Position numbers and translations under genes: made by a program. The notes under the pieces were generated by a model that saw only the letters and a program-made list of their open reading frames with translations, made no database searches and had not been told where the DNA came from. This document shows positions 1 through 43,272 of a DNA stretch of 44,669 nucleotides, in pieces (the stretch's first letter is position 1; every line of letters starts with the position of its first letter). The DNA comes from a virus. The DNA lies in IMG/VR virus record IMGVR_UViG_3300046535_000838, positions 1-44,669 of that record; one strand, given 5' to 3'.

Positions 1-116
1 GCGCGGGCTTTTGCGTTGGCTGCGTGAGATTTGTCGGGTACAGGATAGCTTCTATCGCTCCCAGCGAACGCCGATGCGGGAAGCTTGTTGCGCGCCTTCG
101 CCGTCAGCTTCGCCAT
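1..116 (-). CDS. small conserved phage virion-associated protein, partial (N-terminal 38 residues)
   Basis: The reading frame starts with ATG at 116, sharing its A with the TGA stop of the preceding gene (TGATG), and stays open to the window edge. It begins MAKLTAKARNKLPASAFAG and continues with SYPVPDKSHAANAKAR. This matches a small lysine- and alanine-rich family, with the pattern KLPxSxFA then YPxxDKxHAxNAKAR, that is common in tailed phage genomes and of unknown function. Family members are about 60-80 residues, so roughly half is missing. The family recognition is from memory of the pattern; the frame and overlap are read directly. Confidence 0.75.
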   Translation of the reverse strand, partial: MAKLTAKARNKLPASAFAGSDRSYPVPDKSHAANAKAR

Positions 117-895
117 CAGCCAGCATCCTGCAATAGCGCCGCTTCCCTCGCCTCAACTTCCTCCCGGCGGGGACGCCCCGGCCGCCGCTTTGTCTCGACA
201 AAAGCGCCGAGCGACGATTGTGGTTGCTCCCGCGCAATATCGCCAGCCTGCTGCATGTTCCGCGCCTGCTGAACCGGGTCCATCATCCCCGGAATGACCG
301 TAGCGAGCGGATTGGGCGCGTTCTTCAACCCCATCAACTCGCCATGCATCCGGGTGCAGAGTTCCTTCAATTCCTCAATCTGCCGCGCTTGAGAGGCAAG
401 CTCCGCGCGCTGCTTCTCAAGCTCTGCGCCCTGCTGCTCGGTAAGTGCCATCGCCGCCGCGTCATCGAGGAACACACGCGCCTTGATGCGCAATCCCTGC
501 AACCCCATCGCCTTCTGACAAGCAATATCCGATAGGTTGGCTATTTCCTCGATCGTCTGGATGCCGAGCGAGCGCAATTCCATGACCTGCGCGCGATTAA
601 CGACCGGCCATTCCTCGATCGGAGTGCCTTCCGCCGTCTGCTCCATGCCCTGCCGGAACAGTTCGTATTCGCGAGGCCAACGGTTGCGGTGATCATCGTT
701 TACCCGATGGACGGGCATGGTGTGGGGATTACCGGGAAGGAAAATCTCGACCCGTTCCTCATTCTTGAAGATCGGCCGCCCCTCGCGGGCGCTCGCCAAT
801 TCGTCCTGAACCGGCTCCATATAGAATCGCGGGCGCACCAAATTGCCGTTCGGCGCTTCCGAGCCAGCCCAAGACCGTGTGTATGCTGCCTGCAT
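116..895 (-). CDS. conserved phage structural-region protein with coiled coil and AT-hook-like tail
   Basis: The protein has 259 residues. The N-terminal half carries a pattern I recognise from many phages next to the capsid gene: RPRFYMEP, then EGRPIFKNEERVEIFLPG, then RWPREYELFRQG and GTPIEEWP. A short helical segment around residues 105-140 (MELRSLGIQTIEEIANLSD) resembles a helix-hairpin-helix type repeat. A glutamate/glutamine-rich coiled coil follows at about 150-195. The C-terminus has KRRPGRPRREE, an AT-hook-like basic patch. Start ATG 895 has a GGGAGAG ribosome site. It lies just downstream of the fibre genes in the late operon. Its function is not established; DNA contact is only inferred from the basic tail. 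Confidence 0.8.
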   Translation of the reverse strand: MQAAYTRSWAGSEAPNGNLVRPRFYMEPVQDELASAREGRPIFKNEERVEIFLPGNPHTMPVHRVNDDHRNRWPREYELFRQGMEQTAEGTPIEEWPVVNRAQVMELRSLGIQTIEEIANLSDIACQKAMGLQGLRIKARVFLDDAAAMALTEQQGAELEKQRAELASQARQIEELKELCTRMHGELMGLKNAPNPLATVIPGMMDPVQQARNMQQAGDIAREQPQSSLGAFVETKRRPGRPRREEVEAREAALLQDAG

Positions 896-904
896 GATCT
901 CTCC

Positions 905-1267
905 CTATGCGCTGAGAATGGCAATCCAGCCAGTGCCGGCTGCCCTGAACTGGGCCGCTTTCAGCGTCGTGACCGAAAATCCAGTCGAACCGGCGATGCC
1001 GTTGATCGTCTGGGTGCCGTTGCCATAGACTTTTAGGGTATTAGCCCCACCATTATAGATCACAACGGGCGCGGCCCCTGCCGCCGTCATCAGAACCACG
1101 CCAGAACTGGACGGAGCCGTTGAAATCAGTGTGAAGTTGCTCACAACGGCCGTGGCCGTGCCTTGCGTCGTGCCGGCCCCAGCAATTGTCCCAACCGGGT
1201 CTTGCCCGATCATCCCTGCTGGCAGAGGAGCCGTTCCACCACCCATCAGTTCCGTCTTGAGCGCCAT
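905..1267 (-). CDS. head-fibre or capsid-decoration-like protein, short
   Basis: The protein has 120 residues and is rich in Gly, Ala, Thr and Val. It starts MALKTELMGGGTAPLPAGMIG, which resembles the start of the neighbouring 198-residue protein (ELIGAGMPALQASLLG). The rest looks like a small beta-structured domain ending VYGNGTQTINGIAGSTGF and then W-I-A-I-L, a pattern seen in phage head-fibre and trimeric decoration proteins. GGAGAG precedes the ATG. The shared N-terminal motif suggests both proteins bind the same virion site. The function is an inference from pattern and position. Confidence 0.65.
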   Translation of the reverse strand: MALKTELMGGGTAPLPAGMIGQDPVGTIAGAGTTQGTATAVVSNFTLISTAPSSSGVVLMTAAGAAPVVIYNGGANTLKVYGNGTQTINGIAGSTGFSVTTLKAAQFRAAGTGWIAILSA

Positions 1268-1277
1268 TTTCTCTCTC

Positions 1278-1874
1278 CTACGGCCACGTCGCGATGGCGA
1301 CGCGCTTCCATGTGTTCGTATTGATGCAAACGTAGAGGAAGCCGCTATCCCACGCGATTGTCCCGGTCACGCCTGCGGCATTCGCGGCTGATGGCGTGCT
1401 AGTTGGAATTCCGAAGGCACCAGTCGCCAGCGTAAAGCCGCCCGCCGCGCCAAAAACCGCTCTAGTCGAACCACTCGTATTGATGTTAAGGGGAACACTT
1501 GAATCTGACCCAACAGTCGCCGCTGTGCTGGTGGCATTTAAGAGCGCGTTGACGCTCTCTGTTGGGGAATACACGTCGAATTGCCCGAACGTCGAGGTCG
1601 AATAGACAGCGGCTATTGCCTTGCTAGTCGCTGATCCAGTCTTCTGCCTGAAGAAGAACCCCTCGCGGGAACTGTTCTCGTTATTGACAAGATTCCAGAA
1701 ATCTACTTCGCCAAGGCTGCTGTAATTGCTTGTTATCTCGAAGCCGGCCGTCGTCTGCGACGCCGGCACAACACCAGCGCCATTGAAAGTAGACCGAATG
1801 CCGTTGCCATCGCCGAGCAGGCTAGCCTGCAAAGCAGGCATACCCGCGCCAATGAGTTCATTCGTATCGGCCAT
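1278..1874 (-). CDS. head-fibre-like protein
   Basis: The protein has 198 residues. An N-terminal motif, ELIGAGMPALQASLLG, is shared with the next gene. A Ser/Thr/Ala-rich beta-type body follows, and the C-terminus is FLYVCINTNTWKRVAI, a typical ending of phage fibre and head-fibre proteins. There is no signal peptide. It lies four bases after the stop of the glycosyltransferase gene in the same late operon. Its Ser/Thr richness makes it a plausible substrate of the adjacent glycan cassette, but nothing in the sequence proves that. Confidence 0.65.
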   Translation of the reverse strand: MADTNELIGAGMPALQASLLGDGNGIRSTFNGAGVVPASQTTAGFEITSNYSSLGEVDFWNLVNNENSSREGFFFRQKTGSATSKAIAAVYSTSTFGQFDVYSPTESVNALLNATSTAATVGSDSSVPLNINTSGSTRAVFGAAGGFTLATGAFGIPTSTPSAANAAGVTGTIAWDSGFLYVCINTNTWKRVAIATWP

Positions 1875-1878
1875 TTCT

Positions 1879-3330
1879 CTATGCCGCCTTTTCCGCAGCC
1901 CAGAAGGGACCGAACGCCTGTTTCGCCATTTCCGGCAGCAACCCGCTACCGTGTACCGTGATCATCGCGCCGTGTTCGGCCATCAGTGCGGCGAATGCAG
2001 GGAATGCCTTGGCTTGAGCGAACATCCCTGGAGCACACACGAACTTCTTGCGACCAACCCACACCTCTCGGCGCTCAGCCTCCGCGCCCTTCTGCGCCTG
2101 CTCATAGGCGTGACTCGCGTTCTCGCGATCCGAGCTGTCGTAGCCGTAGAGATGGATCTGCCGGTAGCCCATCGCGTAGACAAGCGCGATTGCCGTCAAT
2201 CCGACCGTAATACCACCGCCGATCAGGACCGATGGTTTGTGATCGAAACAATCGGCAATCCCCTCTTCCCAATGATGGAAAAGGATCACACTCTGCCCCG
2301 AAAGCGTCTCAAACACAGACGGATCACATTGAGAAGCAACCAAGAAGGCGCTGGCGTCGAGCGACGAGACAAACCGGCAATTTTCCGGGCGGGCATCGAG
2401 GATGACCTGGTAGTCGGCCTCAATCCCTTCCTTCTTCAGCCATCCCGCCGCCCCATTCAAGGCAAAAATGGTCTGATGCTGGTAATAACGGTGCCAAATT
2501 TCGTCAATGTCGTCTGCCGCCGATGGTCCGCCCCCAACGAGCACCGCATGACCATCGTGCTCCGGCACTTCGACGACCCACGACACGTTGCGCTGGCTAT
2601 TCACCCTGACGTTGGCAAAAACCTGCTCCTGCGGCGAGTTTGGCCGGATGTCCCATTCGACGCGCGAGCCGATCCCGAGCCAATCCGCGCAATAGTCCAT
2701 CATCCAGTCTTTGCGCGGCCCCCGGAAGTGCAGGACCGTCCCGCGCGTGCAATCATCGCCGGGATACTCGGGAGCCAGGTTGAACGGATCAACAGGCAGA
2801 AAGCGAATGATCGGGCCGCCATTGCCTACCGTCACGCTGGGCTCCAGCGTCGGATGCACGACGGCGGCGAGCGCCTTCTGATCGTCGCCCCATTCGGCAT
2901 CAAGCCGCATCGACCCCAGCGCCCGTTCCCAGATGTACGCGACACCCGACCCGCCACGGATGTAAATCGCGCCCGTGTTCAAAATGCAGTCGGTGAACGG
3001 CCCGGTCGTGAATGCGATATCAAATTCCTGCTTGAAAACCTCCGCCGGGTCGCGCGCCAGCGCGCAATCGGCCCCCAGCAGGACCGTATCCTCCTTCGCC
3101 AGCGCCGATTGGAGATAGGCGAGTTGCCCCGCAAGAATCGCCCGCATCAGATTGTCCGGCAGCGGCGTAACGAAGGCATCGTCATCTCGTCCTACCGATG
3201 CGTCATCCGTAATGACGATGTGCCGATGCCCGAACTTCTCGCACGAAGCTCGCAGGATGTTCAGGAACGGCGAATAGTCCTGGTAAAACGGGTGGTCGCG
3301 ACGCGGAGCCATGAAACTAACGATGTGCAT
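1879..3330 (-). CDS. two-domain glycosyltransferase: GT-A-like N-terminus fused to DUF115 (Maf-type)
   Basis: The protein has 483 residues. The start is ATG 3330, which shares its A with the upstream TGA (TGATG); a longer in-frame extension to 3531 would overlap the hydrolase gene and is rejected. Residues 1-210 resemble a nucleotide-sugar glycosyltransferase: MHIVSFMAPRRDHPFYQDYS, a metal-site-like GADC, and GDDQKAL near the domain end. Residues from about 255 carry DUF115 features: AVLVGGGPSAADDIDEIW, FALNGAAGWL, YQVILDARPEN, IGGGITVGLTAIALVYAMGY, and HLYGYDSS. DUF115 is found in Maf proteins that glycosylate flagellin. The gene sits in a tight cassette with a hydrolase and an acyltransferase inside the capsid operon. 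Substrate and sugar are unknown. Confidence 0.75.
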   Translation of the reverse strand: MHIVSFMAPRRDHPFYQDYSPFLNILRASCEKFGHRHIVITDDASVGRDDDAFVTPLPDNLMRAILAGQLAYLQSALAKEDTVLLGADCALARDPAEVFKQEFDIAFTTGPFTDCILNTGAIYIRGGSGVAYIWERALGSMRLDAEWGDDQKALAAVVHPTLEPSVTVGNGGPIIRFLPVDPFNLAPEYPGDDCTRGTVLHFRGPRKDWMMDYCADWLGIGSRVEWDIRPNSPQEQVFANVRVNSQRNVSWVVEVPEHDGHAVLVGGGPSAADDIDEIWHRYYQHQTIFALNGAAGWLKKEGIEADYQVILDARPENCRFVSSLDASAFLVASQCDPSVFETLSGQSVILFHHWEEGIADCFDHKPSVLIGGGITVGLTAIALVYAMGYRQIHLYGYDSSDRENASHAYEQAQKGAEAERREVWVGRKKFVCAPGMFAQAKAFPAFAALMAEHGAMITVHGSGLLPEMAKQAFGPFWAAEKAA

Positions 3331-3881
3331 CACACGGCCTCCATCAGAAGCCCGCGCAATTCGCCACTCTCCTTCAGTCGATACGGCAGGTCGTGCCCCC
3401 CAGACGGCCAGACGCAATGCCGCGCGTCGAGCCTCATCGCGTGTATCACATCTTCCGGCTCGTCCGCCGCGTAATGCACAACCGCTTGCGGATATGATCC
3501 AGCGATGTCTCTCGATGGCGTCGAATAACACAGACCAGGCCAGCGATGGTCGCCCAACTTCCGCTTAGCCTCGCCGCATGCCGATTGCGGACAGAACGCG
3601 ATGATCCGATCCGCCCCGATCCGTTTGCCGAACCAAAGCGCCGCAAAGCCGCCCGCCGAGCCGCCGATAAAGATCATCGGTCGCCGAACTCGACGGAAAA
3701 GCTCACGCAACACCCGAAACGCGCTGTACTGATACCAGCAATTGTCTAAATCGCGCACACCGACGAAGTTCGCCGGGAAATCCTCGAACGTCTTGGTCCA
3801 CTCGAACATATGGTTCAGCGGCGCCATGCCGGAGAAGGCCACGACTGTCGTCTCGTAACCGCGATGGTCAACCGCTATCAT
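3330..3881 (-). CDS. alpha/beta-hydrolase-fold protein
   Basis: The protein has 183 residues. It shows a nucleophile elbow, FIGGSAGGFAAL, of the GxSxG type at about residues 72-83, and a late histidine in WPSGGHDLPYRL, which would complete a Ser-His-Asp triad. The order of strands around the elbow fits a small alpha/beta hydrolase or esterase. ATG 3881 overlaps the acyltransferase stop (ATGA), and its own TGA overlaps the glycosyltransferase start. The tight overlaps imply translational coupling of three enzymes. A possible role is de-esterification or trimming of the glycan made by its neighbours, but this is not shown. Confidence 0.7.
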   Translation of the reverse strand: MIAVDHRGYETTVVAFSGMAPLNHMFEWTKTFEDFPANFVGVRDLDNCWYQYSAFRVLRELFRRVRRPMIFIGGSAGGFAALWFGKRIGADRIIAFCPQSACGEAKRKLGDHRWPGLCYSTPSRDIAGSYPQAVVHYAADEPEDVIHAMRLDARHCVWPSGGHDLPYRLKESGELRGLLMEAV

Positions 3882-4612
3882 CCAACGCTCTCAACGCCGT
3901 TCGGATAAACCTGGCGTGGCATCCCGGCCAAAAGCTCATCCTCGCTAACAAACCCGAGCACTGCTTGCCCTAGATCCCGCGAGGGGACCGAGACAACCCG
4001 CGAAGGCTCGCCCTTTATCAATGCCCCCGCCGGCACATCACGAGTCACTATCGCGCCCATAGCAACCGTTGCCCCAGCCCCGATCTTAACCCCTGGTCGG
4101 ATTACAGACGCGGCCCCAATCACACAATCGTCTCCGATCGTGATCGGCGTAATACCCTTCCACACATACCCTCCCGGCCTATCGTCGTTTGCCGTGCAGG
4201 TATGCTGCGCCACGAAGCACCGGCTACCAATCACCGTCCCGCCGCTGATGTGGGCGTGATCCATGATCTGCACGTCGTCGCCAATCACCGCATCGTATCC
4301 AATGCTGACACCGATCCCGATCACGCACCGCTTGCCGATCCGAACGCCCTCGCGAATAGAGACATAAGGGCAGATCATCGTGTGATCGCCGATCTCCGAC
4401 CCGGCATAAACCAACGCAAACGGTCCGACGACTACGCCTTCTCCCAACTTTGTCGGCGGCTGTTTCTCAACCGGGCGTGCAAAAGTCGGCCCCCGCATAG
4501 GCTGGAAGCCGACAATCGCAAAGGGATGGATCACAACACCATCCCCAAACGCAGAACCAGTCGCCACGACTGCCCGCGAATTAACGCCCGAAAAGTCGCT
4601 GTCGTGCGACAC
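3878..4612 (-). CDS. left-handed beta-helix (hexapeptide repeat) acyltransferase
   Basis: The protein has 244 residues with many hexapeptide repeats of the [LIV]-G-x-x-x-x type: IGDHTMICPYVSI, IGKRCVIGIGVSI, IGDDVQIMDHAHI, IGSRCFVAQHT, IGDDCVIGAASVI, IGAGATVAMGAIV. It ends with VPAGALIKGEPSRVV, the common closure of sugar O- and N-acetyltransferases such as the WbbJ/LacA group. A histidine in IMDHAHI is a candidate catalytic base. It starts six bases after the decoration gene and overlaps the hydrolase gene. In bacteria such enzymes act in O-antigen or capsule synthesis; here the context suggests modification of virion or host surface glycans. Confidence 0.85.
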   Translation of the reverse strand: MSHDSDFSGVNSRAVVATGSAFGDGVVIHPFAIVGFQPMRGPTFARPVEKQPPTKLGEGVVVGPFALVYAGSEIGDHTMICPYVSIREGVRIGKRCVIGIGVSIGYDAVIGDDVQIMDHAHISGGTVIGSRCFVAQHTCTANDDRPGGYVWKGITPITIGDDCVIGAASVIRPGVKIGAGATVAMGAIVTRDVPAGALIKGEPSRVVSVPSRDLGQAVLGFVSEDELLAGMPRQVYPNGVESVG

Positions 4613-4620
4613 AGGAAGTC

Positions 4621-5121
4621 CTACGCAACCGCGCCCTGGAGGAAAGGCCGCTGGGTCAGCACCGTGATCGTGCTCGTCGCCGACAGCACCGTCGCCGCAT
4701 TGACCGAACGCGCGTTCATCAGTTCCTTGCCCGACGCCGCCGTGCTCATCATGCGCCCGATCGTCGCCGACTGGTAAACCGGCACGTTCGGCGAGACCTT
4801 CACGGCGGTCTTTTTGATCACCGACGCGCCCGCAATCTGATACCAGCCATAGTTCGCCAGCACATTCGCCGACATCGCAACCGCAACCGGCTGGTCGAGG
4901 TTCGCCGTGTTTGGTGTCAGCGTCGTCGTGGCGTTCACCGGGTCATAAACCACGGCCATTCCAACGACCGTGTTGGCCGCACCCTTCAGGTAGATGAATT
5001 CGCCCCCGCCATACGTCGCGTCGATCGCGCGGACGATGGTGCCGAGCGTGTGGTTCTGCACCGTGCTCGTCTGCTCGATCGGCTGAAGGCCGAGGCGGTT
5101 CTCAGTCGGATACCATGCCAT
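4621..5121 (-). CDS. capsid decoration-like protein downstream of the major capsid gene
   Basis: The protein has 166 residues, is Ala/Thr/Val-rich, and carries the pattern NRLGLQPIEQTST, then HTLGTIVRAIDATYGGGEFIYLKG and VVYDP. This family lies directly behind the major capsid gene in many phages and is generally taken as a head-stabilising or decoration protein. ATG 5121 overlaps the TAA stop of the HNH endonuclease gene (TAATG), so the endonuclease has slotted in between capsid and decoration genes. The role is inferred from position and family resemblance. Confidence 0.7.
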   Translation of the reverse strand: MAWYPTENRLGLQPIEQTSTVQNHTLGTIVRAIDATYGGGEFIYLKGAANTVVGMAVVYDPVNATTTLTPNTANLDQPVAVAMSANVLANYGWYQIAGASVIKKTAVKVSPNVPVYQSATIGRMMSTAASGKELMNARSVNAATVLSATSTITVLTQRPFLQGAVA

Positions 5122-5741
5122 TACGCTTGCTCCTTGCCTTTTACAGGCTCTGAGAGAGCCCTTTCGATGGACCAGCCGTAGCCGAGACGCGAGGTAATCG
5201 TGTCACGGTTTAACCCAAGCTTCCGTGCCCATGTCGTGAGCGTGTGCGTCTCTCCGCGAAATTCCAGATAGTGGTTGCTCCGCTTATTATTGTGCTGCTG
5301 TCTCGGGCTGGCCCACCGACAATTGGCCTTAGAGTAGCCTTTTGAATTGTCGATGCGATCAAGCGACCCATGCGCGGGGCAGTCGCCCATGTCCGCATAG
5401 AAAACCGCAAAATCGCGCCATTCCTCGCAAACCCTAATCCCGCGCGCTCCATAATTCTTATAGGAGGCGCAGTTCGGATTTTCGCAGCGCTGGAAAATCT
5501 GCTTCCAGACGGCGTAGACGGGGGTTCGGGCCATGCCGTGGCGCTGAATACGCTCAGCGTTCAAGCACCCGCATGATTTTACTTTCCCCCGAGCCAGATC
5601 CTGGCCGTAAGCGATGACCGACTTCCCGCAATCGCACCGACAGTGCCAGCGAGCATTCGTATCCCGCTCGCTCATATTCGGCGCCCTGCCGGTAACAGTC
5701 AGCCGCTCGTAACGCTCTCCGCTCCGATCAATTAGACGCAT
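5121..5741 (-). CDS. free-standing HNH-type homing endonuclease
   Basis: The protein has 206 residues if started at ATG 5741, where GGAG sits nine bases upstream and the protein opens MRLIDRSGERYERLTVTGRA, the usual start pattern of this family. The frame extends to ATG 5765 and to ATG 5810, abutting the capsid stop, so the start is uncertain. An N-terminal zinc-ribbon-like cysteine set (CRCDCGK, then SCGC) is followed by CENPNCASYKNYGARGI. The HNH core is SLDRIDNSKGYSKANCRWAS, then QHNNKRSN. The C-terminal helix-turn-helix-like part (LTTWARKLGLNRDTITSRL) probably reads DNA. It sits exactly between the capsid and decoration genes and is probably a mobile gene with no virion role. Confidence 0.85.
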   Translation of the reverse strand: MRLIDRSGERYERLTVTGRAPNMSERDTNARWHCRCDCGKSVIAYGQDLARGKVKSCGCLNAERIQRHGMARTPVYAVWKQIFQRCENPNCASYKNYGARGIRVCEEWRDFAVFYADMGDCPAHGSLDRIDNSKGYSKANCRWASPRQQHNNKRSNHYLEFRGETHTLTTWARKLGLNRDTITSRLGYGWSIERALSEPVKGKEQA

Positions 5742-5810
5742 AGGATGAAACTCCGCTATTGACATCGCGGGCGTCATCCTATAGCATCCTGGGTGTGAAG
5801 CAAGCAACAT

Positions 5811-7567
5811 TTACACGCCCAGCACGCCTTGTAGGAAGCTGTTGGAGATGGTCATGTTGCCAGCCCATCCAACCAATTTTACCATCGCGTCCTGATTCAC
5901 TGAGAATCGATCTGGGTCTAACGGGACCATATCCCGATCCCTATGGGGCCGCAGGAAGATGTAATCCGTGTTGAGGAAGTACATGTGCGAGGCCGGGGCA
6001 CCCGTGCCCGAGGTCCAGGTAATGCCGTTGCCATCGATCACGGTGCCGGTGCCTGCTGCGACGCCTTGAAAGCCGCCGTCGAACACCACATCGGCGTCCA
6101 TGAACTTGAGGCTCTGGAACCCCGCCATCGCGTCGGTGTCGCTAGCGATGCGCTGGATGGCCTGGAGGCTCTCCCAGTAGTACCGGAAGAAGATGTTGTC
6201 GGCGATGATCAGGTCTGGCCGATCGGCACCACGCGCTTGAGCGAGCCAGGTCCGGTTCATCATCGTCTGCATCGTGGCGGGTCCGGGCGCTAGGCCAGCG
6301 GTCGCGAACGATTGGTTGTTGGGACGCCAGAACGGCCACGTCTGGCGTGAGATGCCGCCGACCGTGCCGGAGGTGCCGACATCGGCAACGAGAAGCTGAA
6401 GACCGCCGATCTGCTTGCCGCCGTCCGCCGTGCCGTCCGAATAGCAGTCAGACGACAGGTTATTGGTGAATGTCCGCTCGGCGTTCCCAATCCGGCTTTC
6501 GAGCAGGTTGATCATCTGTTCCTTGCCGGAGTTCTGGAGCATTTCCAGGCCGGAAATCGAGACGGCAACCGCAGCCTGCGCAAAGGAAAACTGCGCTGCG
6601 GTGAAGACATCGGAAGGCGTGATATTAAGTACATCGTAGCCGCTGTACCTTTTATATGTTCCATTTTCTGCGTATTCAAGCTCTTGTACTATAGCTTGTC
6701 CGCCGTCAACTGGCTTTACTTTGCCTTTCATTGATAGCCGGCGAAGTAATGCGTTATTTTTCGTCCTTGTGTTCCTGTTCCGGCTCTTTATCCGAAACCT
6801 ACGGCTTCCGTGTTTCGCCGCAGAGCAGACTATCTCATCACTTGTTTGCGGCGCGCCCGTTTGGTCGCGCTGATCTTCGCACCATGCCCCTTCGGGATGC
6901 CGAGTTGCGCTTGGCTGCGCTTCTCGTTGGCTTCTGCCGTCCATCTGCGTCCAGGCCGAAGGTGAGCGTTCGCAACGCCCTTGGCTATAGCCGCGTCTGT
7001 CGGCCGCATAGAGATGCGGTGTTCGTTGTAGAGACCGCCCTCGTTTGCGTAGAAGTCCATCCATTTCAGTTCTGCCGCTCGACGCGCAGAGAGATCATCG
7101 GAATCGATCTGCTCCAGCACCCTAAGCTCGAACGAAATGAACCCGTATTGCCGCCAGTCCGCGAGCAGCGCAGCGCACTGATGCTTCCCACTGCCGAGCA
7201 ACGATCGATGCTCTCGGAAGCGTTTCGCTGGCTTTGCTCTCGTACTGCCAACATATCCCTTGAGATTCCTCAAACATACCAGTGCGTAGATCGTGACCAT
7301 TCGGGATCCCCCTCTTTGGCTTCGCTAACAAGGCCGGGCGCTCGTGGGCGGATTATTCTTTCGTCACCACCTAGTCGTTACACCTGCCGCGCCCCTGGGC
7401 CTTTCGGCTTACATGCGCGGATTGGCTCGGTATTGGCATCTCAGCGTTCACCGAATTCACCCGGTTTTACAACGTCCACGAGGTTAAACGTTGTCGGCGA
7501 GTTGCCGCGACCTGTTATAGAGGGTCGTGGTGGTAATTTCGCCCCAATTGGTATTCGGGCTTGCCAT
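5811..7567 (-). CDS. major capsid protein (HK97-type), interrupted by a group I intron
   Basis: The gene is a join of exon 1 (7487..7567, 27 codons, MASPNTNWGEITTTTLYNRS to ADNV) and exon 2 (5811..6764, starting TKNNALLRRL). Together they give 344 residues, a normal size for this family. The joined junction ADNV-TKNNALL restores the conserved capsid N-terminus. Exon 2 holds the family core: YAENGTYKRYSGYDVLNITP, ISGLEMLQNSGKEQMINLLE, and DLIIADNIFFRYYWESLQ. GGAG precedes ATG 7567 by nine bases, and the scaffold gene lies just upstream. Without splicing, exon 1 meets a TAA at once, so capsid production depends on intron removal. The 417-residue frame reaching 7064 includes intron sequence and is not the real product. 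Confidence 0.9.
6765..7486 (-). ncRNA. group I intron (722 nt) in the major capsid gene
   Basis: All positions refer to the minus strand. The exon end ACAACGTT pairs with GACGTTGT (internal guide, about 7468-7475) to form P1, with the closing G-U at the splice site. Upstream of the guide, TCGT can pair with the exon 2 start ACGA to form P10. Conserved core blocks follow: CCGGGTGAATTCGGTGAA, then ATGCCAATACCGAGCCAA, then TAACGACTAG at 7371-7380 (P7 5' strand). GATAGTCTGC near 6825-6834 is the P7 3' strand; GACTA pairs with TAGTC. The last intron base (6765) is G, as expected for omega-G. The intron carries a GIY-YIG gene between the two P7 strands. The boundaries also restore the capsid frame. 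The intron subgroup is not assigned. Confidence 0.9.
6830..7300 (-). CDS. GIY-YIG homing endonuclease encoded in the intron
   Basis: The protein has 156 residues. The N-terminal GIY-YIG domain shows IYALV and GYVGST, a catalytic-type arginine and histidine in RFREHRSLL, and a glutamate in the FELRVLEQ segment. The C-terminal part (GVANAHLRPGRRWTAEANEK, then QAQLGIPKG) resembles NUMOD3-type modular DNA-binding repeats. The gene lies in the intron loop between the two P7 strands, and its TAG stop falls within the P7 3' strand. The family cuts intronless alleles to spread the intron. It is likely expressed from the capsid transcript. Confidence 0.88.
   Translation of the reverse strand: MVTIYALVCLRNLKGYVGSTRAKPAKRFREHRSLLGSGKHQCAALLADWRQYGFISFELRVLEQIDSDDLSARRAAELKWMDFYANEGGLYNEHRISMRPTDAAIAKGVANAHLRPGRRWTAEANEKRSQAQLGIPKGHGAKISATKRARRKQVMR
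7487..7567 (-). other. exon 1 of the major capsid gene
   Basis: There are 27 codons from ATG 7567 to GTT 7487, followed immediately by an in-frame TAA that belongs to the intron. The last exon base is T, as required for the G-U wobble at a group I 5' splice site. The exon's final eight bases, ACAACGTT, pair with the intron segment GACGTTGT. Confidence 0.88.
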
Positions 7568-7647: not shown

Positions 7648-8865
7648 TCAGCCAGCCTCCAATTCGGCTGCGGCTTCCGCGATTTGCTCTCGCAGTGATC
7701 GTGCGCCACGGCGCTCTGCCGGCGATCCTCCGGTTCCTGGGGAACCGTTGACGCTGGAAGCGGCCCGTGTCGCCGCTACTGCTTGCGCTTTCCGTTCGGC
7801 TGCCGCTTTGCGCTGTTCCTGGGCCTGATTGGCTGCCAGCAGCTTGGAGCGGGTCTCCGGGTTAGCGTACACGGCTCTCTGATAGAGATCCGCGATCGTC
7901 GGTTGCATGCCCTGAGACAACATGGTCTGGGCAAGCATCGTCATATCACGTTCCAATTCGGAAAAATAGGGGTGTTTTAGCTGCCCCGTTTCGTCCTTCT
8001 CGTTGATGAACACATCCATTTGCGAGTTGACCGCCGCTTCCTTCGCCGCTTGGTCGGCAGCCTCGCGCTGGTTCAAGCGTTGTTCCAGGGAATTGAACGC
8101 TTGTAGAAACTGCTGGGGGATCGCGGCTGGCGGCTGTGCAGCCGCGCCCATGTTGCCTTCAGGCTGCTCGCCCCGGAGCAGCGCAGCCACCCGACCAGGG
8201 TCAATGTTGTAGGCCGCAATCATGCGGGCAACATGCTGGGCACCCATGTCATTGACACCGCCCCGCGCCGCATATTCACGGCCTTGTATCATGTCCTGCT
8301 CGATCGAATGCCATCCACGGATGATGTCCGATGGGGTTTTACCTGCCTGCCGCAAACCTCGCATATGCGGCTCGAAAATCTCCATCGCGCCTCGATATTC
8401 CTGCTCAATTTGAGCTGCGCGCTGTAATTTTGGGGCATAGCCAGCTTCAATGGCCTTGTACCGCTCGACCACCTTGCCTTGGTGCTCCTTGGGAAGACCC
8501 GCGATCATATCCTTGTCAGATTGCGACCAATGGGCAGGAACATCTGGAGCGGTTTCGACTGGCGCGGGCGGCGCGCCTTCATCCGCGCCCGTTTCATGTG
8601 CCGTTTCCGCCGCCAAATCGTCGGGTTTGCCTTCCTGCGTGCCCTCTTTCGGCACAAACTTGCCGTCCGGCCCGCGCGGGCGATCGTCGGCGACCGACAC
8701 AGCCGGTTCAGCGCCCCCGCTCTCCGCAAGCGCCGCTGTATCGCGAACCTGACGTTCAGGCCGTTCTGGCGTCTCAGTCGCAGCAGCCGGCGTCTCAGAC
8801 TCGTCAACCGCCCGCGACAGCATCGAGCGAAGGTCTTGCGGCTGTTCCTCAGTATCAGGCGGCAT
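7648..8865 (-). CDS. scaffolding-like capsid assembly protein
   Basis: The protein has 405 residues, is highly charged and is predicted to be mostly helical. An acidic, proline-rich N-terminal third contains GPDGKFVPKE. A central region, VPAHWSQSDKDMIAGLPKEHQGKVVERYKAIE, is typical of scaffold-like proteins encoded upstream of the capsid gene in P22/N4-like phages. Long Gln/Ala helices follow, and the C-terminus is basic then helical (RRGARSLREQIAEAAAELEAG). It starts exactly at the stop of the preceding small gene and precedes the capsid gene. It would guide procapsid assembly and then leave or be cleaved; this is inferred from position and composition. Confidence 0.8.
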   Translation of the reverse strand: MPPDTEEQPQDLRSMLSRAVDESETPAAATETPERPERQVRDTAALAESGGAEPAVSVADDRPRGPDGKFVPKEGTQEGKPDDLAAETAHETGADEGAPPAPVETAPDVPAHWSQSDKDMIAGLPKEHQGKVVERYKAIEAGYAPKLQRAAQIEQEYRGAMEIFEPHMRGLRQAGKTPSDIIRGWHSIEQDMIQGREYAARGGVNDMGAQHVARMIAAYNIDPGRVAALLRGEQPEGNMGAAAQPPAAIPQQFLQAFNSLEQRLNQREAADQAAKEAAVNSQMDVFINEKDETGQLKHPYFSELERDMTMLAQTMLSQGMQPTIADLYQRAVYANPETRSKLLAANQAQEQRKAAAERKAQAVAATRAASSVNGSPGTGGSPAERRGARSLREQIAEAAAELEAG

Positions 8866-9206
8866 CAGCTGTTCCCTATCTTCATGGTGGCGGCAGCAGC
8901 CCGCTCGCTCACAGCACGCGCCTCTGCATGCCTCTCCGGAGACGCATCAATCGCCCCTCGTACCGCAGCCGCGACCGGCGGTAGTCCTTCTCGCGTCGCG
9001 CTCGGCATCTCATTCCCCACCTCAACGCACCCGTGCTGCCGCAAATGCGCCCGATGCTCCGAACGCGACGTAATCGGCTCTCGCGTAATCACCGACCGAT
9101 ACGGCGCGATGTCGCTCTGGATGTACGGCCCTTTACGTGGGGGTAGCGGAGCATCCAGGTCAAGCTCAACCAACTCTCCGCCCCGAAAGACGAAACGGCG
9201 TCTCAT
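8865..9206 (-). CDS. conserved phage protein between portal and scaffold
   Basis: The protein has 113 residues. The N-terminal pattern MRRRFVFRGGELVELDLD, then IAPYRSVITREPITSRSEHR and HGCVEVGNE, is a strongly conserved phage family usually encoded between portal and scaffold. The C-terminus is alanine- and arginine-rich and variable. It overlaps its upstream neighbour by four bases. The function is unknown; the conserved position argues for a head-assembly role. Confidence 0.75.
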   Translation of the reverse strand: MRRRFVFRGGELVELDLDAPLPPRKGPYIQSDIAPYRSVITREPITSRSEHRAHLRQHGCVEVGNEMPSATREGLPPVAAAVRGAIDASPERHAEARAVSERAAAATMKIGNS

Positions 9207-9415
9207 TCGCTTCCCTCGTCCAGCATCTCAAGGCGCGCCGGGTTGCCGATGGCGCCAAATCCCCTCGCTTCGAGCGGCGTGCGCGGGTCAGGCTGCCGAT
9301 TCAACACCATCAGGTGCGTCATGCCACAATGCCGACAATGCTCCGTCGTCACGGACCAGATATGCCCCTGCTCCAGACACTCTGCATAACGGTCAGGATC
9401 GAACTCGCGTCTCAT
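9203..9415 (-). CDS. small protein with a CxxC zinc-knuckle-like motif
   Basis: The protein has 70 residues from ATG 9415, which overlaps the upstream TGA (ATGA). It reads MRREFDPDRYAECLEQGHIW and then TTEHCRHCGMTHLMV. The Cys/His pattern (C...H...CxxC...H) could hold one zinc ion. It lies in the head-gene block but has no recognised family. A longer start at 9442 would overlap the upstream gene by 31 bases. Confidence 0.6.
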   Translation of the reverse strand: MRREFDPDRYAECLEQGHIWSVTTEHCRHCGMTHLMVLNRQPDPRTPLEARGFGAIGNPARLEMLDEGSE

Positions 9416-9675
9416 GGCTGCTGAACGCCGCATCGGCGGCAATATTCTTCAGCAGTCTCCTGTAGTGTCCCTTTATCAGTTGCCGCCGCACGCCGCCAAT
9501 CTGCGTATGACGATTGAGGCTTTACGAAAGAGTTATCCTCATTCACGAGCCGATCCCCATGTTCGGTTTTAACGGGGCGATCCATCGTTTGAAGCAGATC
9601 AACTAGCTTCTCGACCGCCTCCCGCGTCCGCCGAATCTCATCCAGAACGGCTGCGTCCCATCCGGTATCCGCCAT
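9412..9675 (-). CDS. small hypothetical protein, coupled to portal C-terminal fragment
   Basis: The protein has 87 residues from ATG 9675, which shares its A with the portal fragment's TGA. The first half is helical (VLDEIRRTREAVEKLVDLLQ) and could form a coiled coil. The second half, SYADWRRAAATDKGTLQET then YCRRCG, is polar. No family is recognised. Tight overlap places it in the head operon. Confidence 0.55.
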   Translation of the reverse strand: MADTGWDAAVLDEIRRTREAVEKLVDLLQTMDRPVKTEHGDRLVNEDNSFVKPQSSYADWRRAAATDKGTLQETAEEYCRRCGVQQP

Positions 9676-10424
9676 CAAGTCAATCCCTCGGTGTTCCGTA
9701 TCCCGATCCGCGTTAGCCGCGCCGCATCCAGCGCCTCGCGGCCAGCAACCTCACGCCCCCGTAACGCCAGTTCCGCCACCCGCAACTGATTCTCCGCCTG
9801 CGCCTTCGCCTGGTCGGCCTGCGCCTCAACCTGCGCCGCCATCACTCGCGACGCGCTCTCCTGCTGGGCAATCTGTGCCTTTACCTGCGTGTCATGCACC
9901 GAGGCCGCAACCTTGGCCTGCCCAAGCTGCGTCTCCATCTGCGTCTCGGCAACCGTCTTCCCCTTACCCTCTGTCGGAGGCTGCGGAGGCGCCCGTTTCA
10001 TGTCCTCAACGAACTTCTCCAGCGCGTCATCCATCTCGCGCGATGCCGGGAATGCCCTGAACCCGAACCTCAGCAGCGCCCCCGCAAAGTCCGCCACCGG
10101 ACCAGACTGCATCATCTGCGGGATCAGAACCTCGCTTAGCGGTATAATCGCCCGCATGAATTCCGTAATCGCTGCCTGCTCTGCCTGCTGGTCCGCAACA
10201 ACCGTCGAATCCGCCTCAATGTCGATCTTGTACGACTTCGCCGCGTCTTCCTTGATCAGCGCGCAGGCCGCCATGAACTTCTGCTGCCGCCGCGCATTCT
10301 CCGCGTCCCATGCCTGCTTCAACTGCATCCATTGCTGAAACGCCGGGTTCAGCATCATCGGCGGCGCTTGCGGGGCCATCAGCCCCCCACCGCCCTGGAA
10401 AGGAATGACGTTCGAGCCGATCAT
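9675..10424 (-). CDS. portal protein, C-terminal fragment (split gene)
   Basis: The protein has 249 residues. Residues from about 55, FMAACALIKEDAAKSYKIDI and EADSTVVADQQAEQAAITEF, match the segment that follows the proline-rich linker in one-piece portal proteins of this family (pattern YRIDIETDSTIAxDEQAEK). A helical wing-like stretch to about residue 150 follows, then a long Gln/Ala coiled coil (roughly 155-235). The N-terminal 683 bases of separation from the other portal piece (10425..11351 plus overlaps) hold three small genes. ATG 10424 is preceded by weak ribosome-site sequence. The portal is probably assembled from two chains, or this piece is a relic. Confidence 0.75.
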   Translation of the reverse strand: MIGSNVIPFQGGGGLMAPQAPPMMLNPAFQQWMQLKQAWDAENARRQQKFMAACALIKEDAAKSYKIDIEADSTVVADQQAEQAAITEFMRAIIPLSEVLIPQMMQSGPVADFAGALLRFGFRAFPASREMDDALEKFVEDMKRAPPQPPTEGKGKTVAETQMETQLGQAKVAASVHDTQVKAQIAQQESASRVMAAQVEAQADQAKAQAENQLRVAELALRGREVAGREALDAARLTRIGIRNTEGLT

Positions 10425-10739: not shown

Positions 10740-11098
10740 AGACGCGGGAGCCACTTCTTAATCTCCCACGGCTGAACTCGTCTGCCGTACCGCCCCAGCC
10801 ATGCCGTTTCCAAATCAACCCGCGCACGATCTACCGCTTCCTGGTTGATTGCCCTGGCCCATATGGAAGGTTTTGTCTGCTCGCGTAATTCACCAACGCG
10901 GTTAGACTGGCGCGCCACAATCAACTGCTGCTGCACGATGTCCGCATGCGAAGGCATCCGACCCAATTTTCCATGAATCATCAACACGCTGACCAGATCA
11001 GGACGAATTTCCTCCGGCCTATCAAAACCATACTTAGCAAGCCGACAAAACGCCGTCGTCACCAGAATCTCGCCAAGCCTATCCTCTCCGCCAATCAT
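10724..11098 (-). CDS. small hypothetical protein in the split portal region
   Basis: The protein has 124 residues from ATG 11098, which overlaps the upstream TGA (ATGA). It starts MIGGEDRLGEILVTTAFC, is mostly helical, and ends WLGRYGRRVQPWEIKKWLPR. No family is recognised. It lies between the two portal fragments, coupled to the 86-residue gene. An alternative start at 11152 would overlap that gene by 58 bases. Confidence 0.6.
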   Translation of the reverse strand: MIGGEDRLGEILVTTAFCRLAKYGFDRPEEIRPDLVSVLMIHGKLGRMPSHADIVQQQLIVARQSNRVGELREQTKPSIWARAINQEAVDRARVDLETAWLGRYGRRVQPWEIKKWLPRLWGRA

Positions 11099-11355
11099 TG
11101 CGACATCCATGCCGGATCTCGGCCCGCTCGGATCTCTTGAAACTCTCCCCATTGCCGTGTCTTGGCGAAAAAATCACACAGCATCCTTGCGGTATCCAAA
11201 TCGTTCCGCGCAATTATCTTGATGCTTTCCTGCGCCGCTTCGCGCGCCCCGCGATCTTCCGCAAGAACCTGCCAATGGGCCAACTTTGTAATCAAAGCTG
11301 CCTTTCCATCCGTTGAGCAGATGATATCAGCAATCTCCGCCTCTATGTCGGTCAT
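11095..11355 (-). CDS. small hypothetical protein directly after the portal N-terminal fragment
   Basis: The protein has 86 residues, MTDIEAEIADIICSTDGKAA and then WQVLAEDRGAREAAQESIKI. It is acidic and helical, ending GRDPAWMSQ. ATG 11355 overlaps the portal stop by four bases, so it is probably translated after the portal. No recognised domain. Confidence 0.6.
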   Translation of the reverse strand: MTDIEAEIADIICSTDGKAALITKLAHWQVLAEDRGAREAAQESIKIIARNDLDTARMLCDFFAKTRQWGEFQEIRAGRDPAWMSQ

Positions 11356-37311: not shown

Positions 37312-40300
37312 TCACGCGCCAAAATGATCCTGATAGGCGTTGCGCACGTCGGCGAGGAAATAAGCGTTTGTCCCGACAGCGCCAGACCGATTACTGGCAT
37401 CGGTGATATGATCCGCCAGCGCCGAGGTCGCTCCCAGCGCCGTAAAATTCATCAACTGGGCGCGCTTCCAACTCATGTACGAGCCGCCACCGACATAGCC
37501 CGTGTTCTCAGACCCGAATATGGCAGGAACGTCGGTCACCGGAACGTACCAGTGGAACGTGGCGTCGGAAGTGAAGTTGCCGGAACCCGCCGGGACTTTG
37601 ATATCCGCCGCGCTGCCCGCCACCGTCGTCAGATTGAAACTGCTCCCGGATCTTTGGATAACATAATACGCCGTATCCTTAACATAAGGAGAGGGAACAT
37701 TTGCGTAGTGGAACGTGTTGAAGATGAACTTGTCCCCATCTGCCAAAGCAGTCCCCGTACATTTGGAAGTCCCGACCGTCCACGCCGGATTATTCGCGCC
37801 GTTCCATGTCAATGTCAGCCACGGGCTTGTTGTGCCCCATTGATCATTCGCGCCAATCATCGGGAAACCAAAAGCATTAGCGTCAAAATTCAAAGCGTTG
37901 TGCCCAAAGTACGTCGTCGTGCAGAAATACCCAAAGTTGGCGACAATAAAGATTTCCCACAACGCTTCATTTTCAAGCCACGTCAAGGCATTTGCGTTCT
38001 CACGAGCACCCGCCGCAAAAGCCATGCCTGCCCTGGTGTATTGTTGTCCAAATCCCCGGATGAGGAGTTGTGGCGAGCCGGTCGTCGGGTTGTAGTTGTC
38101 CCAGAAGTGGTTGGTCACGCCATAGGAGCCAGTGATCGTGGTGCTGGCGCCAATGTCGATCATCGCTTGCGGGGTATCGTCGGCCAAGCCGTTGAGGCAA
38201 GCAAATAGGTCCGATTCATCCGGCATGACCAATGGGCAAACAGACGCTGCGTTTTGCAGGTCGCGATGACCCCACGCTACGCCTCGGTCTCCACCCGAAC
38301 TAGCCCATATCATGATCCCGGTGTAGTTTCCCGGATTGGTGCCGGTGGTGTTGCGATAGGTCGGCAACAAATCCATTACCCCGCCTGCCGCCATCTCGAT
38401 CAGGCAATCAAGGAACTGGGGTTCCCCGGTTCGCAGATACGGCCAATAGAAAAATGCCGGCTTGTGAGCATTGTCGCTTTGATCGAAGATTTGCCCGACG
38501 TTAAGGGTCGGAGGCTTGGCCGAGCCAGGGAACGGATTGGCCGAGTTGTTCGTATCAGATTTCCAATAGGCCGTATTCAGCATCGTCATCCCGGTATGTG
38601 CGACGCCACGAAGGTTGATGATATTACCGTTGGCGCTGTTTCTGATGCAGTTGATATCGTGAACGCCCGGAAAGGCATTGATCCTGATCCGGCGCTCGCT
38701 GTTGGCTGTCTGGCGCAGGAAATCGATGCCCTGCCACCCTTGCATCCCCCCAAGGTCTTGCCGTCCTGAATTGCCGCCGCCGCCGCTCCTACTGACAGTC
38801 AGGCTGCCAACTCCATACGGCGTCCAGTTGTAGGTAAAAACCGGATCGGTGGCGAGACCAACGAGTGCGAGGTCGTATGGCGGGATCAAACTTAGCTTGT
38901 TTGTCGGGTCGCCGTGCCAGTAGTTCTGGTCGATCGTCGTCCTGACGGTCGGCTCGGCAGCGATCGATCCGGCACCCTGAAAATAGTTCCATCTGCCGTC
39001 CACAGTCGGCATAAACAACCGGCCAAAGCAATTCAATGTCGGTAACGGAGTGGCCGTGTTCGTGCCGTCGCCGGCCCCCGTAACGGTCTGGCTGCTGCCG
39101 AAATGCCCGGATTTCGCGAACGAGATCGTCGTGCTGCCATTGGTGCCCCGGCAATACCACGGCTCGGTGCTCGTCAACGGACTGGGAAGCGTTGTTCCGC
39201 TCGTCGTCAAGAGGCACGGAATGTTGAAGGAGTTGTCCGCTGAGCCAGAATAAAAATCGCTGGACCCCGTTCTAGTCGAATTGACGCTGGCCCCCGCGAC
39301 GTGCGTGAAGGTGATCGCGGTTGCGCCGATTGCCAGAGGCACCGTCGTCGGCCCCGCGCCGTGCTGCCAGTTGACCGTCGTGAACGAGCGGATCGCTTTG
39401 GGAATCGGCGTCGCCCCAACCGTAATATCGTTGTACCAAGGCTGCGCTACACACGGCAGATAGCGGAACCCGCCGAGATTGCCGCTCGCATCCGTTAGCG
39501 CCGCGACGTAGTGATAGCACTCTATCTGACCGTGCCGCGTCCCCCCGATCGTCGGGGCCATGTGGGTCAGCACCCGCCAGACCTTCCCGGCATCGCCGTC
39601 GAGGTAGACGAACTGCTCGACGTTGTTGGCGTCAACGCGGAGCCAGCCGCCGAGATCGCCGGCCAGGCCAAAGCCTGCCCCTGCCCCGGTTACGTTGACA
39701 ATCAGACTTTCGGCATAAACCTCGGTGAGTGTCCGCGCCCCCGCTGCCGGCGCGGTCCCGCCGCTCCACACTCCGATCGAGACCGACCCATTCCCCGCGA
39801 TGCCGGCGGTCGAGCGCAGCATGAACGAGGCAAACTTGAGACTCCCGTCGCTCCAATAGGACTGAAGCCCCCACGAATACGGCTGCGGCGTCGAGCCATT
39901 CTTAAAGAGCGGCGCGGTAGCTGCCGGAATGTCGCCCTTGTGGAACACCCAGCCAAACATCGGGGAGATAAAATCAGCCGCCTGTGCGGAAGCCGAGGTA
40001 TTGACCAAAGTCAGGGTCGAAAGCAGATCACCCGCGCTGCCGGTAACGACCACCGGCTGGGTAAAGGGCGATCCCGTCGCGCCAACCTGAGTGGCAACGA
40101 TATTCAGATTGTAAACCGCCGCTCCAAGAACACCGTTGGTTTCCAGATTGCTCGGTAACGTGGCGCTCGAAAGCTTGAAACTTGCCGCGTCGGCTCCGGT
40201 CAGCGACAGCGTGCCGGTAAACGCCGGAACTGATGGACTCATCAGTACATTAATCGCGCTGATAACCGTCCCATCTGCCGCGCCAGCCGTAAACCCGCCA

Positions 40301-40440
40301 GAGGACGGTGTGACCGAAACAATTATTGATGGAACGACCGGCGGCGGCGTATTCGGCGCATGCGATCGCCGTGCCGCCCACGCCAAGGTAGGCGCACTAG
40401 CGGCTAGACCGGCAAGAACGCTCCGTCGCGTGCGCCTCAC
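37312..40440 (-). CDS. large spike or depolymerase-like protein with Tat-type signal
   Basis: The protein has 1042 residues from GTG 40440, which overlaps the preceding stop (GTGA). The frame extends upstream to 40851 but overlaps the spike gene and has unnatural composition. MRRTRRSVLAGLAASAPTLA then WAARR is a twin-arginine-type leader with an AxA site. A Ser/Gly-rich beta domain follows, then SPMFGWVFHKGDIP and WSDGSLKFASFML (beta-sandwich). Helical stretches with SDNAHKPAFFYWPYLRTGEP and FLDCLIEMAAGG look like an alpha-toroid carbohydrate-active domain. It may degrade or bind a surface polysaccharide. The enzyme family is not assigned. Confidence 0.72.
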   Translation of the reverse strand: MRRTRRSVLAGLAASAPTLAWAARRSHAPNTPPPVVPSIIVSVTPSSGGFTAGAADGTVISAINVLMSPSVPAFTGTLSLTGADAASFKLSSATLPSNLETNGVLGAAVYNLNIVATQVGATGSPFTQPVVVTGSAGDLLSTLTLVNTSASAQAADFISPMFGWVFHKGDIPAATAPLFKNGSTPQPYSWGLQSYWSDGSLKFASFMLRSTAGIAGNGSVSIGVWSGGTAPAAGARTLTEVYAESLIVNVTGAGAGFGLAGDLGGWLRVDANNVEQFVYLDGDAGKVWRVLTHMAPTIGGTRHGQIECYHYVAALTDASGNLGGFRYLPCVAQPWYNDITVGATPIPKAIRSFTTVNWQHGAGPTTVPLAIGATAITFTHVAGASVNSTRTGSSDFYSGSADNSFNIPCLLTTSGTTLPSPLTSTEPWYCRGTNGSTTISFAKSGHFGSSQTVTGAGDGTNTATPLPTLNCFGRLFMPTVDGRWNYFQGAGSIAAEPTVRTTIDQNYWHGDPTNKLSLIPPYDLALVGLATDPVFTYNWTPYGVGSLTVSRSGGGGNSGRQDLGGMQGWQGIDFLRQTANSERRIRINAFPGVHDINCIRNSANGNIINLRGVAHTGMTMLNTAYWKSDTNNSANPFPGSAKPPTLNVGQIFDQSDNAHKPAFFYWPYLRTGEPQFLDCLIEMAAGGVMDLLPTYRNTTGTNPGNYTGIMIWASSGGDRGVAWGHRDLQNAASVCPLVMPDESDLFACLNGLADDTPQAMIDIGASTTITGSYGVTNHFWDNYNPTTGSPQLLIRGFGQQYTRAGMAFAAGARENANALTWLENEALWEIFIVANFGYFCTTTYFGHNALNFDANAFGFPMIGANDQWGTTSPWLTLTWNGANNPAWTVGTSKCTGTALADGDKFIFNTFHYANVPSPYVKDTAYYVIQRSGSSFNLTTVAGSAADIKVPAGSGNFTSDATFHWYVPVTDVPAIFGSENTGYVGGGSYMSWKRAQLMNFTALGATSALADHITDASNRSGAVGTNAYFLADVRNAYQDHFGA

Positions 40441-42038: not shown

Positions 42039-42223
42039 GGCGTCGTCAGGCTCCCTTGTGTCGTCCACACCTCGCGCGCCGCCGTGCGCTGAAAGCCGCC
42101 CTCGGTCGTCCAGACCCCGGTTACGGAGGCAGCGACCACGGGCGGCGGCACGAGGATCAAATTGGCTAATGCATAGCTGCCGAAAATTACCAATGCAGCG
42201 AGCGCAGTCAGAAGTATTCTCAT
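42035..42223 (-). CDS. small secreted or membrane-anchored protein
   Basis: The protein has 62 residues. MRILLTALAALVIFGSYALA is a signal peptide or membrane anchor. The tail VTGVWTTEGGFQRTAAREVW then TTQGSLTTP is short and polar, with two repeats of VWTTxG. Coupled to the spike gene by TGATG. Function unknown. Confidence 0.62.
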   Translation of the reverse strand: MRILLTALAALVIFGSYALANLILVPPPVVAASVTGVWTTEGGFQRTAAREVWTTQGSLTTP

Positions 42224-42235
42224 TGAATGAAGACC

Positions 42236-43198
42236 CTAGCGTACAAAAATCGTCACAACGCCCGTCGCCACGCCGCTCGATGTCCAGATCGTCGTGCCGG
42301 TCGTCACAAGACCCAGCCGATCACCGGGGGCGAGCACCCAGTTTGCCCCGGTTGCTGTGGTCAGATTCTGATCTGTCGCCGCACCGCTGTTAGCGTTGCA
42401 ACTGGCGCTGTCCGTCAGATTCGTTCCGGCGGAAATAGCAGTGGCGCTCGGAGCCTTATAAACTGAGATCGTTGCTACCCCGCCGGCCAGAACTTCGGGG
42501 TTGCACCTGATCCCGATAATCGTCCTAGCTTCTGAAAAGTTCGCAATCGGCATGCTGTTCGGGTTGATCCCCGGCGGATAGGTTATCGCATACCCGGCCA
42601 GCGGCGGATAATCCCGCGTGATGATCCCGGTGTCGGGGACCGCCGTTACAAACTTACCTGCGACCGCTGTATCCGCGCCCAAGGTCGGGGGCGCTATCGT
42701 CGCCCATTTACCCGCAACGGTCGGAACGTAGGTCACGCTCTGCCTTGCCGCCCCGAGTGTCGTTCCCGTCGTCGCTCCGTCGATCGTGTCGCTCGATTGA
42801 CGAGTTGGCGTGACTACATTCGTCGCGTTGAAAATCGCCGCAAGGTCTACCACGGTCAGCGGACAACCTAGCGTGTAGGATGCCACGGTCGGCAAATTCA
42901 TCGCCCGGCCCGCCGCTATCGGCGTTGAGCCGGTCGTATAGAGCAACCCGGTCGTCGCTCCGATAGTCTTTGCCGCCGTGCCGTCCCAAGTGTCTATTCC
43001 GACCGGACAGTTATTGCTTAGGCTGACAATTACATCGCCTGTAATCGGCGAGACCGTGACGCCGCCCGTGCCCGACACGCTGCTGACCGCGCCAGTACCA
43101 CCGCCAACGCCGCCTGATACCCATTGCGCGCGCACAGCGTCGCCACCTGCCAGCGCGAGCAGCCCGATCCCGACGATCGGCAAAATGAATTTTCGCAC
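42236..43198 (-). CDS. secreted or virion fibre-like protein with Sec signal peptide
   Basis: The protein has 320 residues. MRKFILPIVGIGLLALAGGD then AVRAQ is a Sec signal peptide. The mature part is Thr/Gly/Ala-rich and beta-type: GGTGAVSSVSGTGGVTVSPI resembles phage tail-fibre segments, and the last 100 residues (ARTIIGIRCNPEVLAGGVAT, SVYKAPS) look like a receptor-binding or trimeric fibre end. It belongs to the spike block. Confidence 0.68.
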   Translation of the reverse strand: MRKFILPIVGIGLLALAGGDAVRAQWVSGGVGGGTGAVSSVSGTGGVTVSPITGDVIVSLSNNCPVGIDTWDGTAAKTIGATTGLLYTTGSTPIAAGRAMNLPTVASYTLGCPLTVVDLAAIFNATNVVTPTRQSSDTIDGATTGTTLGAARQSVTYVPTVAGKWATIAPPTLGADTAVAGKFVTAVPDTGIITRDYPPLAGYAITYPPGINPNSMPIANFSEARTIIGIRCNPEVLAGGVATISVYKAPSATAISAGTNLTDSASCNANSGAATDQNLTTATGANWVLAPGDRLGLVTTGTTIWTSSGVATGVVTIFVR

Positions 43199-43272
43199 TA
43201 GCGTCTCCTCACGGGCATTGTGCTGTCATCGGATGCCGCATATATGTCAAGCGAATTCGGCGGAGAGCGGAC

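Follow-up and report, generated by a model that had tools for sequence, protein, structure and literature searches.

What does a phage gain from carrying carbohydrate-modifying enzymes within its capsid operon? The question arises from the window analyzed here, an IMG/VR virus record (IMGVR_UViG_3300046535_000838) taken at its full length of 44,669 nucleotides, whose capsid operon is read on the minus strand. An initial annotation of this DNA had described three tightly overlapping genes, for a hexapeptide acyltransferase, an alpha/beta hydrolase and a glycosyltransferase-DUF115 fusion, and had proposed that this trio glycosylates and acylates virion proteins. We asked whether the trio is the relevant unit, what its enzymes resemble and which molecule they are likely to modify.

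Organization of the capsid operon

All three predicted open reading frames (ORFs) are present on the minus strand, closely packed behind the decoration gene (Table 1), and the order of the operon is decoration gene, acyltransferase, hydrolase, fusion glycosyltransferase, fib1, fib2 and g259. Eight nucleotides separate the decoration stop codon from the acyltransferase start, and the two following junctions are ATGA and TGATG overlaps, respectively. In other viral contigs the cassette reading frames are preserved, with 40-70% identity, and are therefore not due to chance. The fusion gene was correctly recognized in the initial annotation, but its proposed length of 550 residues from position 3531 does not hold: that ORF extends back across the hydrolase gene, and relatives begin at the codon equivalent to 3330. 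The label of head-fibre genes, given to the stretch from 1874 to 905, stands in part, since fib1 matches the C-terminus of a tail protein family and fib2 has no family match. Besides the window, a fib1 relative was found only in L035; fib2 is present in relatives with and without DUF115, and g259 is found downstream in almost every relative whose sequence extends far enough.

Table 1. Features of the window discussed in the text (all on the minus strand).
Feature	Position	Strand	Basis or remarks
Terminase	15930-14422	-	
Portal	13031-11352	-	
Capsid	ends 5811	-	phrog_9953
Decoration protein gene, 166 aa, P-type	4621..5121	-	phrog_29386 virion structural protein, E 1.4e-28; proposed substrate
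Ser/Thr motif NAATVLSATSTIT, decoration residues 141-153	4663..4701	-	column comparison; proposed acceptor region
Left-handed beta-helix (hexapeptide) sugar acyltransferase, 244 aa, GTG start	3878..4612	-	PF00132
Alpha/beta-hydrolase-fold protein, 183 aa	3330..3881	-	predicted structure
GT-A + DUF115 fusion glycosyltransferase, 483 aa	1879..3330	-	start from TGATG overlap and relatives
GT-A (GT8-like) domain, residues 1-222	2665..3330	-	fold and profile match
DUF115 / PF01973 (Maf/MptE-like) domain, residues 231-471	1918..2640	-	Pfam, profile, fold
fib1, Ser/Thr-rich protein, possible fibre	1278..1874	-	phrog_17312 tail protein C-terminus, E 2e-10
fib2, small conserved protein flanking the slot	905..1267	-	
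g259, conserved gene bounding the variable slot	116..895	-	phrog_20268, E 4e-20

Other features were observed in the window. A group I intron apparently splits the capsid gene in its 5' part (6830-7467, minus strand), with an RF00028 match at 7333-7467 that lies below the gathering score (E 0.001) and a GIY-YIG ORF at 7300-6830; split capsid genes also occur in relatives L020, L021, L036, L044 and L102. Between the capsid and decoration genes (5121-5810, minus strand) lies an ORF that is HNH-like by eye and has no Pfam match, and relatives L002, L007 and L020 carry similar ORFs there and also between the decoration and acyltransferase genes. At the far end of the window (37312-44669, minus strand), four large ORFs (1179, 543, 320 and 385 aa) have no PHROG match; the two that were tested have no Pfam match, and these ORFs possibly encode ejection or tail proteins.

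Domains and folds of the cassette enzymes

The C-terminal part of the fusion protein matches PF01973 (MptE-like/DUF115; E about 4e-19, 69.8 bits against a gathering score of 34.6), as do 82 of 82 slot proteins. In the predicted structure of the fusion (pLDDT 87), residues 233-471 align with the Maf flagellin glycosyltransferase 5mu5 with a Z of 20.9 and an rmsd of 3.1 over 222 residues, and a profile search of the fusion returned the same Maf structure for DUF115 (E 9e-12) and Skp1 galactosyltransferase for the GT-A domain (E 5e-7). Maf enzymes O-glycosylate surface-exposed Ser/Thr residues with no fixed sequon, and their architecture comprises an N-terminal Rossmann-like domain, DUF115 and a C-terminal helical domain (PMC11339370). 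The likeness to Maf noted in the initial annotation is thus right for the central Rossmann-like DUF115 domain, and the transfer to Ser/Thr residues of a self-assembling surface protein that we predict here would be a second likeness. However, the analogy does not extend to the Maf architecture or genomic context. The phage proteins lack the Maf N- and C-terminal domains and carry GT-A or methyltransferase fusions instead, the window chain stopping about 10 residues past DUF115, and they are encoded in a phage structural operon, with no flagellin gene seen in the virus record. The NCBIfam model FlagModPseD (PseD) gave the fusion 17.6 bits against a cut-off of 670.

Fold matches of the N-terminal domain include LH3 (Z 15.4), the PBCV-1 capsid glycosyltransferase 2p72 (Z 15.3) and the GT8-type enzymes glycogenin (Z 14.7) and Gat1 (Z 14.6). 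The PBCV-1 enzyme, described in the title of entries 2p72/2p73 as involved in major capsid glycosylation, is likewise virus-encoded; however, it belongs to a eukaryotic algal virus, resembles the window domain in fold at only 10-15% identity and has no DUF115 domain. With the GT8 enzymes glycogenin and Skp1 galactosyltransferase (Gat1), the window domain shares the GT-A fold and a family-wide profile match, but it has no Pfam match above cut-off, no Pfam GT8 match at E 1, and a DxD metal-binding motif that reads GAD in the window and its clade. This substitution suggests that the GT-A domain of the window may be weak, altered or inactive; DLD (DLDT) is present in 24 of 33 slot relatives.

The acyltransferase is assigned to the hexapeptide-repeat proteins (PF00132, E 4e-29, 99.5 bits against a cut-off of 27). 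Its nearest solved structure is QdtC (profile E 9e-27), WxcM-like sugar N-acyltransferases are also close, and its best NCBIfam match is NeuD/PglB/VioB (TIGR03570; E 1.6e-26), at 93.2 against a subfamily cut-off of 160.8. It thus shares the hexapeptide fold and the conserved ND motif region with QdtC and NeuD-type enzymes but falls under the subfamily cut-off, and a sugar is its predicted substrate. The product of 3881-3330, which has no Pfam match above cut-off, is by its AlphaFold model (pLDDT 71.5) a predicted alpha/beta-hydrolase-fold protein, with Foldseek matches to serine hydrolases (best E 1e-6, probability 1.00). It contains a GGSAGG nucleophile elbow (S75) and candidate D144 and H163 residues, all three conserved across four aligned sequences, three of which are closely related. 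Its bacterial relatives are distant and do not fix its substrate.

Coupling of DUF115 to the decoration protein

The space between the decoration gene and g259 varies among capsid relatives, being near empty in many and filled in others. The exact trio is rare, occurring in the window and in four IMG/VR contigs (L003, L008, L009 and L045, the last three close relatives of one another). Hydrolase relatives were found only in these four contigs, and acyltransferase relatives only in the wider window clade. Therefore, the trio is not supported as a functional unit, and the general unit is the decoration protein together with DUF115. A stand-alone DUF115 protein has about 265 aa; in other loci the domain is joined to GT-A, to methyltransferase domains or to both, with layouts that include GT-A+DUF115+methyltransferase, DUF115+methyltransferase, DUF115 with a separate GT-A, and DUF115 alone. 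Among 84 dereplicated slots, the DUF115 protein has at most 290 residues in 15, five of which hold no other gene of at least 100 aa. The GT-A, methyltransferase, acyltransferase and hydrolase parts come and go within the slot, and these accessory domains are of carbohydrate-enzyme type.

The position of DUF115 is much more constant. It normally lies directly behind the decoration gene, across capsids 29-90% identical to that of the window, and within 150 nt of it in 64 of the 84 dereplicated slots (median gap, 44 nt). An IMG/VR scan seeded with DUF115 only, the kind of survey for which the initial annotation had called, found the decoration gene upstream in 54 of 54 loci with enough upstream sequence (53 by script; L124 was added by eye, its ORF start having been over-extended). 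DUF115 is also present in contigs that lack this decoration protein, namely L170, beside kinase genes, and L171, from another phage. In the latter, a contig binned as Thioglobus and of a different phage type, the stretch 3538-4979 shows DUF115 directly behind a 195-aa gene with no decoration homology. Two unusual slots were also seen: in L102 the DUF115 gene is flanked by two decoration genes (8227-8739 and 10743-11261), and in L018, a relative without DUF115, a 604-aa protein that reads as pectate-lyase-type-spike-like (8174-9988) occupies the slot beside an extended fib2.

Among isolated phages in INPHARED, no match was found for the DUF115 gene (none of 50,697 phage records) or the hydrolase gene, and a P-type decoration query reached only Myxococcus phages Mx8 and Mx9. 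Their homologue adjoins the capsid gene and is annotated as 'major virion structural protein'. We found no solved structure for the decoration family.

At equal capsid identity, decoration proteins accompanied by DUF115 are more similar to that of the window than those without it; for capsids 70-80% identical, the values are 54-61% and 34-49%, respectively. Column comparison attributes this to a C-terminal stretch, NAATVLSATSTIT in the window, that is conserved in the former group and not in the latter, and the columns that discriminate between the groups are concentrated in this Ser/Thr motif. A simple Ser/Thr count gave a less clean separation than the aligned motif did, and a strict regular expression matched only 58 of 81 proteins with DUF115, so we used a position-wise motif score. 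The exact motif is missing from the divergent DUF115-bearing loci L039 and L057 and from the L053/L158/L167 type, which keeps another Ser/Thr stretch; L060, whose decoration protein has a motif-like stretch and whose contig ends soon after, was left out of scoring.

Because the motif had been defined on the first set of loci, it was tested on new ones. Most of these came from scans that used decoration proteins of both types as seeds, the rest from genome contigs, and loci sharing a decoration sequence with the first set were left out. All 93 motif-bearing decoration genes had DUF115 downstream, and 51 of 56 motif-less genes did not; of the five loci with DUF115 and no motif, four have another Ser/Thr stretch. 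Restricting the set to the decoration-seeded scans gave 86 loci with both, none with the motif alone, 51 with neither and three with DUF115 alone, and dereplication at 80% identity gave 21, 0, 30 and 3, respectively, although Fisher tests on such counts overstate significance because P-type decoration proteins are mostly one clade and the loci are not independent. Mapped on the capsid tree, the presence of DUF115 requires 10 or more changes, seven of them forced by well-supported branches; the decoration tree, built with the motif columns removed, requires two. Of seven phylogenetically independent pairs taken from the capsid tree, 5-6 show the motif changing together with DUF115 and none shows the opposite pattern (median p 0.03).

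Pairwise identities of DUF115 and decoration proteins are also correlated (rho 0.43; partial 0.42 given capsid; reached in 0 of 300 permutations), a linkage that may be partly physical because the two genes adjoin; the control flank, g259, is more distant. For comparison, rho was 0.12 for DUF115-capsid, 0.08 for DUF115-g259 and 0.79 for capsid-g259. Co-variation, motif and tree tests together indicate, as judged from sequence, that the pair of decoration protein and DUF115 behaves as a single module on an otherwise co-evolving backbone.

A proposed virion glycosylation module

We propose, with a probability of roughly 0.6, that the slot behind the decoration gene is a virion glycosylation module in which DUF115 acts on the decoration protein as an O-glycosyltransferase and the other enzymes build further on the glycan. 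The acceptor role of the motif, the sugar, the order of steps and the benefit are, like O-glycosylation itself, what we infer from genomic association, domains and folds. DUF115, with its Maf/sialyltransferase-like fold, would transfer a host-made activated sugar to the neighboring decoration protein, at Ser/Thr residues of its C-terminal motif, before or during head assembly. The scan of window proteins revealed no recognizable gene for nucleotide-sugar synthesis, and the donor would therefore be supplied by the host. The GT-A domain of the window may then add a further sugar, the acyltransferase may place an N- or O-linked acyl group on the sugar or on its nucleotide form, and an ester may be added or removed by the hydrolase. 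Methyltransferase domains would replace these tailoring enzymes in relatives. The modification could serve shielding, stability or adhesion.

Glycosylation could instead target another virion protein, namely fib1, fib2, the g259 product or the major capsid protein, all encoded in the same operon, and fib1 is itself Ser/Thr-rich. We consider this unlikely: fib1 is confined to the window and L035, fib2 and g259 occur without DUF115, and after correction for the decoration protein neither g259 nor the capsid co-varies with DUF115. The distribution of fib1 and fib2 also led us to reject the Ser/Thr-rich fibre genes as the likely substrate. The best reading is therefore more specific than virion proteins at large and points to the decoration protein.

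Seroconversion cassettes typically carry acyltransferase and glycosyltransferase genes, and the module might accordingly alter a glycan of the host surface (O-antigen or capsule), as a means, for instance, of excluding superinfecting phages. A distant alphaproteobacterial relative of the hydrolase, which by sequence reading lies beside methyltransferase-like and glycosyltransferase-like genes, fits such a role. However, DUF115 keeps its place directly behind the decoration gene and is coupled to its subtype, no membrane flippase or polymerase gene was recognized in the slot, and the nearest fold to DUF115 is that of a cytoplasmic protein-glycosylating enzyme; we consider this explanation unlikely too. 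The preference of the initial annotation for virion modification over O-antigen change is thus well supported, by the 54 of 54 loci and by the tie to the Ser/Thr-motif subtype.

There is perhaps one chance in ten of simple hitch-hiking, in which recombination moved two neighboring genes together with no enzyme-substrate relation, given the short gap between them and the essentially single clade of P-type decoration proteins. Against it, the motif never occurred without DUF115 in the 93 new and 13 dereplicated capsid-seeded loci, DUF115 stays constant while the other enzymes of the slot vary, and the discriminating decoration columns cluster in the Ser/Thr motif. Finally, that DUF115 acts as a diphosphokinase or an assembly factor with no glycosylation is very improbable, since the archaeal MptE pyrophosphokinase 8sd5 shares the fold (Z 14.3) but Maf is clearly nearer in sequence and fold, and the fusion of DUF115 to GT-A and methyltransferase domains speaks for glycan chemistry.

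Glycosylation of the decoration protein would add to a short list, since few systems with glycosylated phage virions are known. Phage enzymes that glycosylate virions and Maf enzymes that O-glycosylate flagellin have both been described already. In mycobacteriophages, phage-encoded glycosyltransferases modify virion proteins, with glycans at the C-termini of capsid and tail-tube subunits (Freeman et al. 2023, as cited in PMC12619734 and PMC10877033), whereas here a decoration protein is proposed. We found no description of a DUF115-decoration protein pair in the open literature searched or in INPHARED isolates, and open-access searches on DUF115/MptE-like proteins in phages and on decoration-protein glycosylation returned nothing relevant.

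Together, these results favor a system for O-glycosylation that is widespread among phages. In it, a Maf-type DUF115 enzyme and a dedicated Ser/Thr-motif decoration protein probably form a module exchangeable between capsids, with interchangeable GT-A, methyltransferase, acyltransferase and hydrolase tailoring. If so, this locked pair would yield, from sequence alone, predictions of the enzyme, its substrate and the acceptor region, and would provide a compact protein O-glycosylation system in which to test shielding, adhesion and particle stability. It would also mean that phages exchange the chemistry of their coats as a module.
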